Origin: Flavobacteriaceae bacterium
Lineage (GTDB): Bacteria; Bacteroidota; Bacteroidia; UKL13-3
Assembly (NCBI GenBank): GCA_025363675.1
Contig: JANYDJ010000187.1
Location: 1-48,671, forward strand
Direction of reading: 5' to 3'
DNA length: 48,671 nt
Shown here: piece after piece, positions 1,743 to 47,173 of the stretch
Layout of the letters: every line of letters begins with the position of its first letter
Numbering within the stretch: the stretch's first letter is position 1
The notes under the pieces: model-generated
The model's database searches: none
What the model was told of the DNA's origin: nothing
Seen by the model: the letters and a program-made list of their open reading frames with translations, nothing else
Position numbers and translations under genes: made by a program

Positions 1743-4490
1743 TTGGACAAGTTCAATTTATATACCACAATATTGCAAAAGGGTTTAAAATCTCGTTTAT
1801 TCATTCCCCGCAAAACTAAACCCAATAAAGGTTTTGGCCGGTTGGTGTTTTTCACCAAATACGCCTTACTGTGTATTAGCTGTATATTATTCTGTTCACT
1901 CAACAGCATGGGGCAAAGCAAAACAGACACGCTTAAGAAGTTTGATACCACCATCCACATCCACTCCATCAATGAAACCGATACGCAAGAAATATCGACC
2001 GATACGCTAACTATCGGCGATTCACTTTCTAAAAATGATACTATTGGATTGCGTGCCGGAAAGGATGGACTGAAATCGGATGTGAATTATACTTTTGACG
2101 ATTCCAGTTATTTTGATGTAGAGCATAAAGAATTTCATTTATGGGGCAAGGCACATGTCGATTTTGAAAAAATAAAACTGAATGCCGGTTATATAAAAAT
2201 AAATTTTGGGAATAATACCGTCAATGCCGAACCAAGTATAGATAGTTTGGGTAATCCCTATAACCTTCCTGTTTTTAATGATGGTGATCGAGATTATATA
2301 TGCCAGAAAATGAGTTATAATTTCCAAACCAAAAAAGGGAAAATATATGGATTAATTACTGCCGAAGGCGATGGACTGATACATGGTGGTCAGGTAAAAA
2401 AAGATTCGCTTGATAACTTATATGTAAAAAATGCAAAATATACTACGTGTACAGATACGCTGCACCCACACTTTTATATACTGGCCAAAGAATTGATGAT
2501 TATTCCCGGTAAGCAAATAGTGAGCGGTCCCGCACAGTTGGTGGTGGCCGATGTGCCCACACCTATCATTTTGCCTTTCGGTTTTTTTCCTATTAAAAAG
2601 GGACAGCGGCGTGGCATATTACCACCGAGTTTTGCCAACAGCAGGGCACAAGGTTATTACCTAAAAGGATTGGGATATTATATACCTATTAATGACTATG
2701 TGGATTTGGCAGTGAGGGCAGATATATATTTTAATGGAAGTTGGCAAGGTTATGTAGCCCAACAGTATAAAAAGAATTATAGTTTTGCAGGGAGTTATAC
2801 ATTGTCGTATGGCAATATAGTTTTTGGAGATAAGAAAGCAGATGATTTTACGCGTACCCGTAATTTTAATTTTGGTTGGCGGCACACCATCGATCCCAAA
2901 AAAATACCAGGTTATACCTTTAATTTGGATATCAATTTATCATCATCCAATTATTATCAAACTTCTACTTCATACAATTATAATGATATCACAAAAAATA
3001 TAATTCGATCATCGGTAAACCTAGGTAAGAGCGACCGTAAGAATAGATATAATACTACTATTGCCTTAAACCACGATCAAAATTTGCAAACGCACGATAT
3101 TAGTTTCACGCTGCCCGAGATAAATTTTACGTATAATAGTTTTGCCCCTTTTGCCAATAAAAACCGGATAGGGATTCCAAAATTTTATGAGAACATCCGC
3201 ATAGGATACACCCTTAATTTTAAGAACCAAATAAGAACCAAAGATACCATTCTTACCCAGCATCCGGATACTATTCCCTATTTACTAAAAAATGGTATGG
3301 TACATCGCATACCGCTCAATCTTCCCACTTTCAAAATATTCAAATATCTGAATGTAGCACCTACTGCCGACTATCAAGAATATTGGTATTATAAAACGGT
3401 AGAAAAAGCTTGGAATTCCATTAACCAAAAGCTGGATACCTTCTATAATAAAGGTTTTCAACGAGCTTATAGTTATGGTGGGCAGGTGCAATTAAGCACG
3501 GCAGTATATGGAATACTTAATATTAATAAGTTGGGTCTTGTGGCGGTGAGTCATGTAATTCGTCCCTCCATTTCGTTCGAATATCGTCCCGATTTTTCAG
3601 ATACTAAATATGGTTTTTATAAATATAACCGACGCGATTCCCTTACTTTTTATCCGCAGAAATATTCTATTTTCGAGCAAGGTATTTATGGCGGACCAGG
3701 GGCGGGCCAACAGGGCAATATGAGGTTTAGCATTGTTAATAATTTAGAAGCAAAATATAAACACAAAACTGATACAGGAATTGAAATAAGAAAAGCATCA
3801 TTGATTGATAATTTAACCATCGGAGCCTTTTATAATTTCTTGGCTGATTCATTTAAAATGTCAAACGTAAGTATAAGCGGTGCTACCCGATTATTTAAAC
3901 GTTTTGCCATTAATTTTGGAAGCACCATCGACCCCTATAAATATAATAGTACCCACCGCGTAAATGAATATGATATAGATGTGAAAAAACTTAAATTTGG
4001 ACAACTACTCAATGCAAGGTTTGCAGTATCAGCAAGCTTAACGGCCGATGATTTTAACCCGAAACCTAAAACCAAGTTAGGAGCAAAAAAAGATACCAGT
4101 GCCGAACAAAAGTATATAACAGCCAACCCCGATATTTTTGTGGATTATAATATACCTTGGTCTTTAAACTTATCATATACTTTTATATATACTCATTTTC
4201 CGTTGGCTATAGCTGAGCAGCAAACAAAAATACAACCCACCCTTATGTTGAGTGGCGATATAAAACTCACACCCAAATGGAAAATAGGATTTAGCACCGG
4301 TTACGATTTTTATTCGAAACAAATTACCTTCACCAATATCAATATATACCGCGACCTCCACTGCTGGGATATGGCCTTCGACTGGGTGCCAACCGGACAG
4401 TATAAACGTTATATGTTTACCCTCAAAGCCAAGTCAGCATTGTTACAGGATTTGAAACTGAATAAGCGGAGAGAATGGTTTGATAAGTAG
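1743..4490 (+). CDS. LptD/OstA-like outer membrane LPS assembly protein
   Basis: ORF 1587-4490. N-terminal OstA-like region (FDVEHKEFHLWGKAHVDFEKIKLNAGYIKINF) then a long beta-barrel with VADVPTPIILPFGFFPIKKGQRRGILPPSF. Start uncertain: TTG at 1743 or 1773 more plausible than the ORF start, which overlaps the divergent amidase. Confidence 0.82.
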   Translation: MDKFNLYTTILQKGLKSRLFIPRKTKPNKGFGRLVFFTKYALLCISCILFCSLNSMGQSKTDTLKKFDTTIHIHSINETDTQEISTDTLTIGDSLSKNDTIGLRAGKDGLKSDVNYTFDDSSYFDVEHKEFHLWGKAHVDFEKIKLNAGYIKINFGNNTVNAEPSIDSLGNPYNLPVFNDGDRDYICQKMSYNFQTKKGKIYGLITAEGDGLIHGGQVKKDSLDNLYVKNAKYTTCTDTLHPHFYILAKELMIIPGKQIVSGPAQLVVADVPTPIILPFGFFPIKKGQRRGILPPSFANSRAQGYYLKGLGYYIPINDYVDLAVRADIYFNGSWQGYVAQQYKKNYSFAGSYTLSYGNIVFGDKKADDFTRTRNFNFGWRHTIDPKKIPGYTFNLDINLSSSNYYQTSTSYNYNDITKNIIRSSVNLGKSDRKNRYNTTIALNHDQNLQTHDISFTLPEINFTYNSFAPFANKNRIGIPKFYENIRIGYTLNFKNQIRTKDTILTQHPDTIPYLLKNGMVHRIPLNLPTFKIFKYLNVAPTADYQEYWYYKTVEKAWNSINQKLDTFYNKGFQRAYSYGGQVQLSTAVYGILNINKLGLVAVSHVIRPSISFEYRPDFSDTKYGFYKYNRRDSLTFYPQKYSIFEQGIYGGPGAGQQGNMRFSIVNNLEAKYKHKTDTGIEIRKASLIDNLTIGAFYNFLADSFKMSNVSISGATRLFKRFAINFGSTIDPYKYNSTHRVNEYDIDVKKLKFGQLLNARFAVSASLTADDFNPKPKTKLGAKKDTSAEQKYITANPDIFVDYNIPWSLNLSYTFIYTHFPLAIAEQQTKIQPTLMLSGDIKLTPKWKIGFSTGYDFYSKQITFTNINIYRDLHCWDMAFDWVPTGQYKRYMFTLKAKSALLQDLKLNKRREWFDK

Positions 4491-4568
4491 GAGTAAGGAA
4501 AGGGGTAAGGGGTAAGGGCCATTCGGCGTCAGCTCCTTATCCCTTACTCCTTATCTCTTGCCCCTTTT
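4488..4568. repeat. Heptamer-arm/core palindromic element, copy A
   Basis: ggagtaa|ggaaagg|ggtaagg|ggtaagg|GCCATTCGGCGTCAGCTCC|ttatccc|ttactcc|ttatctc|ttgcccc; arms complementary; lies between convergent stop codons. Confidence 0.85.
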
Positions 4569-7085: not shown

Positions 7086-7206
7086 AGGAGGAATAAGGGA
7101 TAAGGAATAAGGACCATGCGGCGTAAGCTCCTTATTCCTTACTCCTTATCCCTCGAATAAACCATGCGGCGTCAGTTACCGCCAACCGCCTACTACCAAC
7201 CGCCCC
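7086..7206. repeat. Heptamer-arm/core palindromic element, composite copy B (two cores)
   Basis: Core 1 ACCATGCGGCGTAAGCTCC (7113-7131) with TAAGGRA / TTAYTCC arms; core 2 ACCATGCGGCGTCAG (7161-7175) followed by CAACCGC-type heptamers. Confidence 0.8.
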
Positions 7207-7231
7207 TCGCCAATAGAAAACAAATAACCGA

Positions 7232-7741
7232 ATGAAAAAATATCTCACCATTATCATACTTCTCATTTCACAATTTGCTTTTGCTCAAAAAAATGTGCAG
7301 GTTACTGACTCGTTTAAAATAGTTTCGGCAACCGATAGCCTTACTATAAATCTTGATATGATAAAGAAAATAGCGGCTCAAAAATTACCCGATTTACGGC
7401 TTACCAATCACCATGGAGAATTTAAAAAACTTCTCACAAATTTGCAGGGAATACCTATCAAAACTTTTCTTGAAAAAATAAAACCGGTTACCGAAAAACC
7501 AAAAGAACTGAGCGAATACTATTATATATTTCGTGTTGGCGACGACTATATAAATGTATATTCGTGGAACGAGATTTTTAATACCGCAGTAGGCGATTCT
7601 ATATATATAATAACAAGCTACGATGGATTTAACTTAGACACCATGCCCGATAAAATAATGATTGTATCCATGAGCGACAATACCACCGCACGCCGCATGC
7701 TTAAAGGGTTAAGAAGGATTGAAATTTGTAGGGTGAAGTAG
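7232..7741 (+). CDS. Hypothetical secreted protein
   Basis: 169-aa ORF with signal peptide MKKYLTIIILLISQFAFAQ; no family recognised. Confidence 0.7.
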   Translation: MKKYLTIIILLISQFAFAQKNVQVTDSFKIVSATDSLTINLDMIKKIAAQKLPDLRLTNHHGEFKKLLTNLQGIPIKTFLEKIKPVTEKPKELSEYYYIFRVGDDYINVYSWNEIFNTAVGDSIYIITSYDGFNLDTMPDKIMIVSMSDNTTARRMLKGLRRIEICRVK

Positions 7742-7827
7742 TGAGGAGTAAGGAGTAAGGAGTAAGTAGTAAGGAGTAAGGAGCTGACGCCGAATGGTCC
7801 TTACTCCTTATTCCTTGCTCCTATTTT
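7742..7827. repeat. Heptamer-arm/core palindromic element, copy C
   Basis: AAGGAGT repeats | GGAGCTGACGCCGAATGGT | TTACTCC TTATTCC TTGCTCC; fills the gap between two convergent stop codons. Confidence 0.85.
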
Positions 7828-33372: not shown

Positions 33373-33456
33373 TAGTAATAAGTCATTAGTCGTTAGTCAT
33401 TAGTGGCTGACGCCGAATGGCACTAACGACTAACCACTAATTAACTAACCACTAAA
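33373..33456. repeat. Heptamer-arm/core palindromic element, copy D (AGTCATT-type arms)
   Basis: AGTCATT AGTCGTT AGTCATT AGT | GGCTGACGCCGAATGGC | ACTAACG ACTAACC ACTAATTA ACTAACC ACTAA. Confidence 0.85.
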
Positions 33457-34035: not shown

Positions 34036-34040
34036 AATAG

Positions 34041-34127
34041 TAATAAGGAGTAAGGGATAAGGAGTAAGTGCCATACGGCGTTAGCTCCTCACCCCTTGCT
34101 CCTCACTCCTTACCCCTAATTCCTATC
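34041..34127. repeat. Heptamer-arm/core palindromic element, copy E
   Basis: TAAGGAG TAAGGGA TAAGGAG TAAGT | GCCATACGGCGTTAGCTCC | TCACCCC TTGCTCC TCACTCC TTACCCC TAATTCC. Confidence 0.85.
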
Positions 34128-43504: not shown

Positions 43505-43567
43505 AGTAGTTAGTAACTAGTAGTTAGTAATCAGTAATCAGTGGTCAGTGGTCAGTGGTTAGTGGGG
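43505..43567. repeat. Heptamer tandem array AGTNNYY without core
   Basis: AGTAGTT AGTAACT AGTAGTT AGTAATC AGTAATC AGTGGTC AGTGGTC AGTGGTT AGTGGGG. Confidence 0.85.
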
Positions 43568-43673
43568 GAGCAGTATTTAGTAGTTTGGATATAGAGGGCA
43601 AACAATAATATTATATACTTTTTCCGAATTGTGTAAGATGCTTTGGAATGAACTTTTTTCATGCATGCTCTCA

Positions 43674-43755
43674 AGTCCCTTTAGGGACGGAACATTGGTA
43701 TAGAAAGTACCCAAGCCTCAGACCTTCCCAGTCCCTTTAGGGACGGAACATTGGT
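43674..43755. repeat. Two REP-like palindromes (left pair)
   Basis: AGTCCCTTTAGGGACGGAACATTGGT at 43674-43699 and 43730-43755, identical. Confidence 0.92.
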
Positions 43756-44216
43756 TACACCAACTCCTTAAAAATGTATCGCTCATCATACTCAATTTCA
43801 AACTCATCCAAAAACTCTATATATTCTTCCCTAAAAGATTTCTTGCGATGATGTTCTTCTTGGTTTTTTATATACTCAATTACATTTTTCAAATCAGATT
43901 TACTATATGAAAAAGCACCATATCCAGCTTGCCATTCAAATTTGCCTTTTACTAGTTTGTTGTCATTAATCCATTCAGAAGAACTCCCTTTTATGTCCTG
44001 CATCAAATCGGAGATCGATTGGGAAGGTCGCAATCCAATTAGTAGATGCACATGGTCAGGGACTCCATTTATGATAAGCATTTTGTGCTGATTTGCTTGT
44101 ACAATTCCTGTTATATATCCATATAGTTTGTCCTTCCATGAGGAATGTATTACACCCTCTCTGTATTTAACTACGAATACGATTTGTAGATGTATTTGTG
44201 TGTATGTATTTGGCAT
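43755..44216 (-). CDS. IS200/IS605-type Y1 (HUH) transposase, RAYT-like
   Basis: HUH motif DHVHLLIG; C-terminal catalytic-Tyr helix VIEYIKNQEEHHRKKSFREEYIEFLDEFEIEYDERYIF; flanked by REP-like palindromes. Confidence 0.93.
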   Translation of the reverse strand: MPNTYTQIHLQIVFVVKYREGVIHSSWKDKLYGYITGIVQANQHKMLIINGVPDHVHLLIGLRPSQSISDLMQDIKGSSSEWINDNKLVKGKFEWQAGYGAFSYSKSDLKNVIEYIKNQEEHHRKKSFREEYIEFLDEFEIEYDERYIFKELV

Positions 44217-44220
44217 GTTT

Positions 44221-44304
44221 ACCGATGTTTAGTCCCTATGGGACTTTTGGTTCGAGGGTATTCTTTTTTTGTTACCGATGTTTAGTCCCTATGGGACTTT
44301 TGGT
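44221..44304. repeat. Two REP-like palindromes (right pair, opposite orientation)
   Basis: ACCGATGTTTAGTCCCTATGGGACTTTTGGT at 44221-44251 and 44274-44304, identical. Confidence 0.92.
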
Positions 44305-46190: not shown

Positions 46191-46232
46191 GCATTCCGCC
46201 GAATGGCCCTTACTCCTTATCCCTTACTCCTA
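46191..46232. repeat. Truncated heptamer/core element, copy F
   Basis: GCATTCCGCCGAATGGC | CC TTACTCC TTATCCC TTACTCC TAAG; one arm only, overlaps the 3' end of the EamA CDS. Confidence 0.75.
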
Positions 46233-47173
46233 AGTACTACTAATATTTCTTCTCGCCAATCTAACACTATAATACCTCCGATACATAACAACAAACAAAA
46301 CCATATAATAGGTTTCGGTTTTTCGTGACCCACCAAGGTGTTGAAAAGCATAACTACCAATGGTAAATTGGCAAAAATAGTCTGAGCTTCTGCCACGGGA
46401 AGATAAGCTAAGCAAGCAATACTACAACTCACCCCAATAACAGGACCCGAAATAGTTCCGATAATTATATATATAATACCTTTTGGATTTTGTATAAAAG
46501 GTGCCAAAGGAAATATATTAAACTTGCCACGTGATGCATCTGCAACTATGATAATAAGTGTAGCACTTAGCATTCTAATTAATCCAATAGTATAGGGTTC
46601 GGGCATATTCACTGAATCCATTTCACGACCCATCTGTGTTATGGCCAATCCCAATCCTTGGCATACTGCAGATATAAAAGCATAGATAAATCCTGCTTTG
46701 ATAATTTGGGTTTTTATATCACTTGTGTTTTTTGATTTGCTGAGAATAACCAGTATAATACCGCCGATGGTGATAGTCATTCCCAACCAACCTATGATAT
46801 TAATATTTTGGCCACTAAATATATATGCAGCAATAGCAGCAGCTAGTGGCGATGCACAGCTGATAAGGGTTGTATAAGTGGAACCTATAGTGCGAAATGC
46901 TTTAAATACAAAATAATCTCCGATGGCTAAACCCACAATTCCTGACAGTCCGAAATAAAACCATTGTGAGTTTTTGAGTCGTGAAAATTCTGTTCCAATA
47001 TCAGAACCTTTATATATAAATATGAAAAAAGAAAATATAAATAGTAATACCGTAGCTAATACCAATCTGGATTTATTGACTACTGCAGGTTCATATATAA
47101 TAGATGCTTTGGTAAACGAAACGGTGGCTGTGGACCAACAAACAACCGTGAGCAACGCAAATATAACACCCAT
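46217..47173 (-). CDS. EamA/DMT-family transporter
   Basis: Ten-TM-like protein with duplicated EamA halves (YTTLISCASPLAAAIAAYIFSGQNINIIGWLGMTITIGGIILV; AEAQTIFANLPLVVMLFNTLVGHEKPKPIIWFCLLLCIGGIIVL). Confidence 0.9.
   Translation of the reverse strand: MGVIFALLTVVCWSTATVSFTKASIIYEPAVVNKSRLVLATVLLFIFSFFIFIYKGSDIGTEFSRLKNSQWFYFGLSGIVGLAIGDYFVFKAFRTIGSTYTTLISCASPLAAAIAAYIFSGQNINIIGWLGMTITIGGIILVILSKSKNTSDIKTQIIKAGFIYAFISAVCQGLGLAITQMGREMDSVNMPEPYTIGLIRMLSATLIIIVADASRGKFNIFPLAPFIQNPKGIIYIIIGTISGPVIGVSCSIACLAYLPVAEAQTIFANLPLVVMLFNTLVGHEKPKPIIWFCLLLCIGGIIVLDWREEILVVLRSKG

Follow-up and report, generated by a model that had tools for sequence, protein, structure and literature searches.

Dispersed intergenic hairpin repeats with a common core and a dominant heptamer class that differs between species in a freshwater Bacteroidota genus

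The stretch of 48,671 nt analyzed here (the window), from a Flavobacteriaceae bacterium, raises the question of what kind of repeat is formed by tandem heptamers that flank a common core on both sides, and of whether such a repeat belongs to an already described family. A first-pass annotation of the window had listed seven cores and described them as a dispersed intergenic family with a near-invariant core. A search with the core GCCATTCGGCGTCAG, allowing up to three mismatches, returned seven matches, all at the places listed, against a mean of 0.37 and a maximum of 3 in shuffled sequence; the searches of the window and of the whole genome both bore out the description. The copies, together with one array that lacks a core, are as follows.

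4488..4568 (+): copy A, GGRRTAA class; arm 4488-4517, core GCCATTCGGCGTCAGC 4518-4533, inverted arm 4534-4568 (core search, arm parse, RNA fold)
7087..7153 (+): copy B, GGRRTAA class; arm 7087-7112, core 7113-7128, inverted arm 7129-7153 (core search, arms, fold)
7161..7213 (+): second core ACCATGCGGCGTCAG; right arm degenerate, of ACCGCCA-type heptamers
7736..7822 (-): GGRRTAA-class copy; core 7783-7798, arms 7736-7782 and 7799-7822 (core search, arms, fold)
33373..33455 (-): GTTAGTC-class copy in the pyrH-like/frr gap; core 33406-33421, an arm on each side (core search, arms, fold)
34039..34124 (+): GGRRTAA-class copy in the frr/transglycosylase gap; arm 34039-34069, core 34070-34085, inverted arm 34086-34124
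43505..43565 (strand not assigned): heptamer array without a core, GTTAGTA and GTGGTCA types
46193..46234 (-): truncated GGRRTAA-class copy; part of the core, CCATTCGG, and one arm, the second arm missing

Arms of 7-bp units on both sides, as initially proposed, are present in most copies, but the copy at 7161 lacks a separate left arm, and its right arm is degenerate. Nor do the copies share one arm type, because the heptamer class varies and the copy with its core at 33406-33421 is built of GTTAGTC rather than GGAGTAA. Copy A lies in the gap between an LptD-like gene and a cytochrome-like gene (genes identified by Pfam), folds as RNA with a z-score of -6.1, and occupies a site that is also occupied in two other species of the genus (G001 and G002).

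The source genome (G000; 3.5 Mb, 279 contigs, 87% complete) contains 31 exact matches to the 16-letter core CCATNCGGCGTNAG and 47 with at most one mismatch, most of which carry heptamer arms on both sides; the armless one-mismatch matches (L046, L049, and one in L057) are chance matches. The first-pass annotation had held that a few copies without periodic arms would speak against a family; dozens with periodic arms were found genome-wide. The genomes of the three species are metagenome-assembled, about 10% of G000 and 25% of G001 having been read in contiguous stretches, and contain 31 (G000), 24 (G001), and 6 (G002) exact cores. The exact core is absent from the other genomes of the family, and one distant genome has two core matches, both armless (L031 and L034). 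When 85,462 species genomes were scanned with the core plus a right-arm grammar, which catches only some of the arm classes, the only match was the assembly of G001, a Bacteroidetes genome assembled from a freshwater metagenome. Judged from these genome searches, the core appears to be confined to one freshwater Bacteroidota genus. Spread via viruses was rejected, since an extended pattern had no match in viral contigs. Heptamer arrays without a constant core also occur in other families of the class (G035, G039, and G048), with arms that are often inverted in G035 and G039; the arrays of these two genomes share no head motif, and a core general to the Bacteroidota was therefore rejected. Sixteen other genomes of the family yielded one array in about 300 kb of sampled DNA, and a Nostoc plasmid bears an inverted heptamer hairpin.

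The constant centre is composite and consists of GCCATNCGGC joined to GTCAGC. Half A, GCCATNCGGCA, adjoins the purine-rich arm and half B, ATCAGGCGTCAGC, the pyrimidine-rich arm; the halves are usually fused, lie 53 or 112 bp apart in some copies, and half B also heads single arms. A core-blind search for 8-mers beside heptamer arrays ranked GCGTCAGC first in G000 (17 of 22 occurrences beside arrays, P 8e-42) and in G001 (20 of 41, P 6e-44), and the same search yielded nothing comparable in G035 or G039. At least six classes are represented among the arrays behind GCGTCAGC (CTCCTTA, CACTGAC, CGACTAA, AAATCGT, CATTAAC, and CTGCCTA). It might be supposed that GCGTCAGC is a nucleation site at which an enzyme, either a reverse transcriptase or a polymerase that slips, adds or replaces 7-nt units, starting from this head and using a template that changed between species. 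We consider this highly improbable; if it were true, most arrays of a genome would have their class switched in trans. In some copies the centre contains a small nested palindrome, such as TCCCGAATAGTCGGGA in G001 or CCGCCGCGGCGG in G002. A gene-carrying version between the core halves was sought and rejected, since the spacers do not exceed about 110 bp and distant inverted arms were paired by weak similarity only. Separately, arrays of the AGTATAA class often adjoin a sequence that is roughly CCAGCGGAAGCAGC (L115 5287, L130 4562, L136 15236, and L174 9377), which is perhaps a second head motif.

The 7-bp periodicity of the arms proved genuine: at one score threshold, 359 kb of G000 contained 37 arrays at period 7 versus 0-4 at periods 4-6 and 8-12. 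Pairing between arms was counted directly rather than by a covariance model, because a single alignment cannot accommodate arms of different classes. Among 74 elements, 51.9% of positions formed Watson-Crick pairs at register 0 and the same share one heptamer further, compared with 22-35% at other registers. When right arms were swapped among all elements, pairing fell to 43.5% and none of 500 swaps was as good; when they were swapped within species and class, pairing was 51.8% and 201 of 500 swaps were as good. The class positions are constant and the R/R positions vary independently between the arms; as a swap within a class costs no pairing, each arm draws its variable purines independently of the other. 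Inversion of the elements thus holds at the level of the heptamer class, without base-by-base proof-reading, and the mutual complementarity that had been described for the arms holds for classes and not unit by unit. Hairpin-templated correction and base-by-base compensatory pairing were rejected on the same ground. As a further observation, some heptamer arrays are hundreds of bases long (G001 C3:184762-185266 and C5:26955-27435; G000 C166:7297-7533), and some of these have 14-bp higher-order units.

Both strands of the tested copies fold strongly as RNA (z -4.7 to -7.3, the latter for the copy at 33373..33455), and the structure resides in the heptamer arms; the core itself forms no more than a 3-bp GCC/GGC hairpin and lacks a GTAG/CGTC tag. 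Only one of 73 core elements lies inside an ORF. With gene calls that are mechanical ORFs and hence approximate, the other 72 lie in 55 co-directional, 11 convergent, and 6 divergent gaps, against a background of 308, 95, and 112 among 515 gaps, so that divergent gaps are under-used (6/72 versus 112/515). By the same rough calls, the core centre lies a median of 37 nt from the neighboring 3' end, which implies that the arm starts at the stop codon; the outer ends of the arms are often TAG...CTA. In co-directional gaps the core points with the genes in 30 cases and against them in 25, and a sense-strand RNA element was rejected on this count. The strong folding, the closeness to 3' ends, and the scarcity between divergent genes are what would be expected if the elements were selected 3'-end RNA hairpins, serving as terminators or stabilizers, whose arms drift under compensatory change. 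This explanation is nevertheless distinctly improbable, because the arms of an element pair with each other no better than with those of another element of the class, A.C mismatches are not avoided, core orientation is unbiased, and one copy stands between pyrH and frr, which usually form one operon.

The dominant heptamer class is species-specific, namely GGRRTAA in G000 and GTRRTCA in G001 (classes were assigned by eye and simple rules). Three consecutive GGRRTAA units matched 111 times in G000, 2 times in G001, and 14 times in G002, and three consecutive GNNGTCA units matched 0, 176, and 6 times, respectively. Eighteen G000 core sites have orthologous flanks in sampled G001 DNA, and 17 of them hold a heptamer element there, although some of these G001 loci were fetched because they bear elements. 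At the remaining site (the L011 ortholog), the heptamer hairpin of G000 C173 is matched by an unrelated palindrome, CCTGAGTTTATCGAAGGG..., at G001 C2:137902-138045 in the same intergenic site. No clean empty site was found among the compared sites. In complete contigs only, the G001 ortholog contains an array for 5 of 6 array-bearing and 3 of 17 array-free G000 gaps, a small sample of 23 gaps (Fisher P 0.009).

At these shared sites the arms are often spelled differently. In the pyrH-frr gap, the arm class is GTTAGTC in G000, GTRRTCA in G001, and GGRRTAA in G002. The G001 ortholog of copy B is of the GTRRTCA class with an inverted core, the copy at 34039..34124 has an altered core in both G001 and G002 and a changed class in G001, and the place of the coreless array at 43505-43565 is taken by other heptamer classes in both species. 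In six class-switched ortholog pairs, mean arm identity is about 0.50, with flanks about 83% identical, and class-switched arms are no closer to their ortholog than to elements of the same genome (0.47-0.61 for most). By inspection of the alignments, 6 of the 18 G000/G001 sites have an inverted core: the window copies at 7113 and 7783 (the latter in a convergent gene pair), L001, L053, C150:13776, and C124:56819. Sites L001 and L012 keep GGRRTAA in G001, where it is a minority class, which hints, though it does not prove, that GGRRTAA came first and GTRRTCA spread in G001. Neither the many heptamer classes around one core nor their difference between species at the same sites had been noticed in the first-pass annotation.

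The order of units within the arms differs between the genomes in how far it is shared. Unrelated loci of G001 have unit order in common (for left arms, 0 of 2000 shuffles; for right arms, P 0.008), and the left arms of G000 give no such signal between loci (P 0.96). Hybrid arms are present (G001 C5:60180; L060; L010). As a single case, L027 and L074, from different species, have the identical left-arm unit order AA, GG, AA, AG with all class letters different; the letters may have been changed in place, and chance is also possible. Such in-place change with unit order kept was rejected as a general account, since it fits this one pair and not others. In addition, L077 (G001 C14) joins flanks that are found at two G000 elements, L012 (C175) and L016 (C201), and is possibly an insertion or rearrangement ending at a heptamer element.

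Alternatively, a DNA- or RNA-binding protein could recognize the heptamers, reading the class letters and leaving the purine positions free, so that a change in its specificity would be followed by co-evolution of every site. The constancy of the class positions beside the independent R/R positions, the species-wide extent of a class, and a core orientation that ignores transcription, as for a DNA site, are in keeping with this idea. We nonetheless judge it improbable, in view of the several unrelated classes with the same core in one genome, the variable array length, and the shared unit order in G001, which points to copying.

A somewhat unlikely account is a small non-autonomous mobile element, resembling a MITE, inserted repeatedly at hot spots after stop codons, with an active subfamily and class of its own in each species. 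Under this account, the shared unit order in G001 would resemble a recent burst, the mixed core orientation at orthologous sites is what independent insertions would give, and the frequent start of the outer arm ends at TAG and the unrelated palindrome at the L011 site would also agree with it. Strong hot spots would however be required for 17 of 18 shared sites, the inverted share of 6/18 is not clearly 50%, no target-site duplication is demonstrable from inverted heptamer arms without an empty site for comparison, and about 1.15 Mb of G000 and G001 revealed no autonomous copy or transposase flanked by matching ends. REP/RAYT systems also comprise short dispersed extragenic palindromes with mosaic insertions, but their short palindrome tagged with a tetranucleotide (GTAG/CGTC) is absent from the heptamer elements. 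A RAYT driver was rejected for want of correlation: PF01797 counts are 4 in G000, 4 in G001, and 0 in G002, although G002 has elements, and reach 15 in genomes without the element. The window itself contains a RAYT-type (Y1_Tnp) transposase gene at 43755-44216 (-), flanked on each side (repeats 43673-43757 and 44218-44304) by pairs of its own palindromes, AGTCCCTTTAGGGACGGAACATTGGT and ACCGATGTTTAGTCCCTATGGGACTTTTGG, which are distinct from the heptamer elements. XisI, the distribution of which has been compared with that of heptamer repeats (PMC4679880), was rejected as a correlate because only G035 lies above the cut-off. As neither RAYT nor XisI tracks the elements, no responsible enzyme or intermediate was found in these comparisons.

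The explanation that we favor, albeit tentatively and with a likelihood a little under one half, is that the elements are old, genus-specific dispersed intergenic hairpin repeats, with arms altered through slippage in steps of 7 nt and through copying from one locus to another. Its starting points are the shared sites, the symmetry at class level, the turnover of class, the inversion of the core, and the shared unit order in G001; across the species compared, the pattern resembles concerted evolution among dispersed repeats whose sites are conserved. A feasible course of events may be that the element sites are ancestral and that their arms are altered by slippage and copied between dispersed copies, where the common centre and arms would permit template switching or short-homology conversion. 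A successful class would overwrite others while the sites persist, and the inverted arms would let the centre flip. The location 3' of genes may reflect tolerance of insertions there, and a weak role as 3'-end hairpins is possible, though unproven. A unit order common to unrelated loci, as in G001, is expected from copying between loci. Two observations count against slippage and copying: the trace of copying is found in G001 but not in the left arms of G000, and the unit order kept across the class switch between L027 and L074 is not predicted by plain copying. That the comparisons brought out no enzyme or intermediate also speaks against this explanation, and with no clean empty site among those compared, repeated targeted insertion retains some probability.

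The view that the element belongs to no known family stands in that an Rfam search of the window gave no family matching it and that the core seems peculiar to the genus; the inverted-heptamer layout, however, is already known, since inverted heptamers occur in Xanthomonas, Nostoc, and other Bacteroidota families. Rehm et al. (2015; PMC4692102) described intergenic heptamer repeats, GGGAATC in Xanthomonas and GGGGAYT in Nostoc, that are rare between divergent genes. A Xanthomonas genome has 70-75 inverted pairs, and 83% of the repeats keep their position in a sister Xanthomonas species. The present elements have in common with these repeats 7-nt units, intergenic location near stop codons, scarcity between divergent genes, inverted pairs, and sites kept in sister species. 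By contrast, those genomes have one class each, with no reported constant core or change of class between species, and their repeats have quadruplex-forming G-tracts (PMC4692102); the main classes here, GGRRTAA and GTRRTCA, have no four-G-tract quadruplex pattern, GGATTCG-type copies (L004 and L045) being a minority. In the P6b stem of the Nostoc tRNALeu(UAA) intron, which consists of complementary 7-nt repeats, the classes TDNGATT and NNTGAGT replace each other with the structure kept, but this concerns two classes at a single intron site (Kaasalainen et al., 2015; PMC4476775), whereas the present elements are spread over the genome and share a fixed centre. TAACTGA repeats, which are patchy over Beggiatoaceae, Cyanobacteria, and Bacteroidetes, and cyanobacterial STRRs are likewise tandem intergenic heptamers, but are direct repeats of one word, mostly near start codons, without inverted arms or a core (MacGregor, 2015; PMC4679880). 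No description of a fixed centre, a class-independent head motif, or a species-wide change of class at shared sites was found in the open-access literature, and the inversion of the core at a third of the compared sites is likewise beyond what that literature was found to describe.

Arms that are respelled with other 7-letter words at kept sites are unusual for bacterial repeats. Heptamer repeats are found repeatedly in Cyanobacteria, Xanthomonas, Beggiatoaceae, and Bacteroidota. Here, species of a single genus combine shared sites and a fixed anchor with different words, which makes it possible to distinguish overwriting in place from hot-spot insertion and from co-evolution of binding sites.
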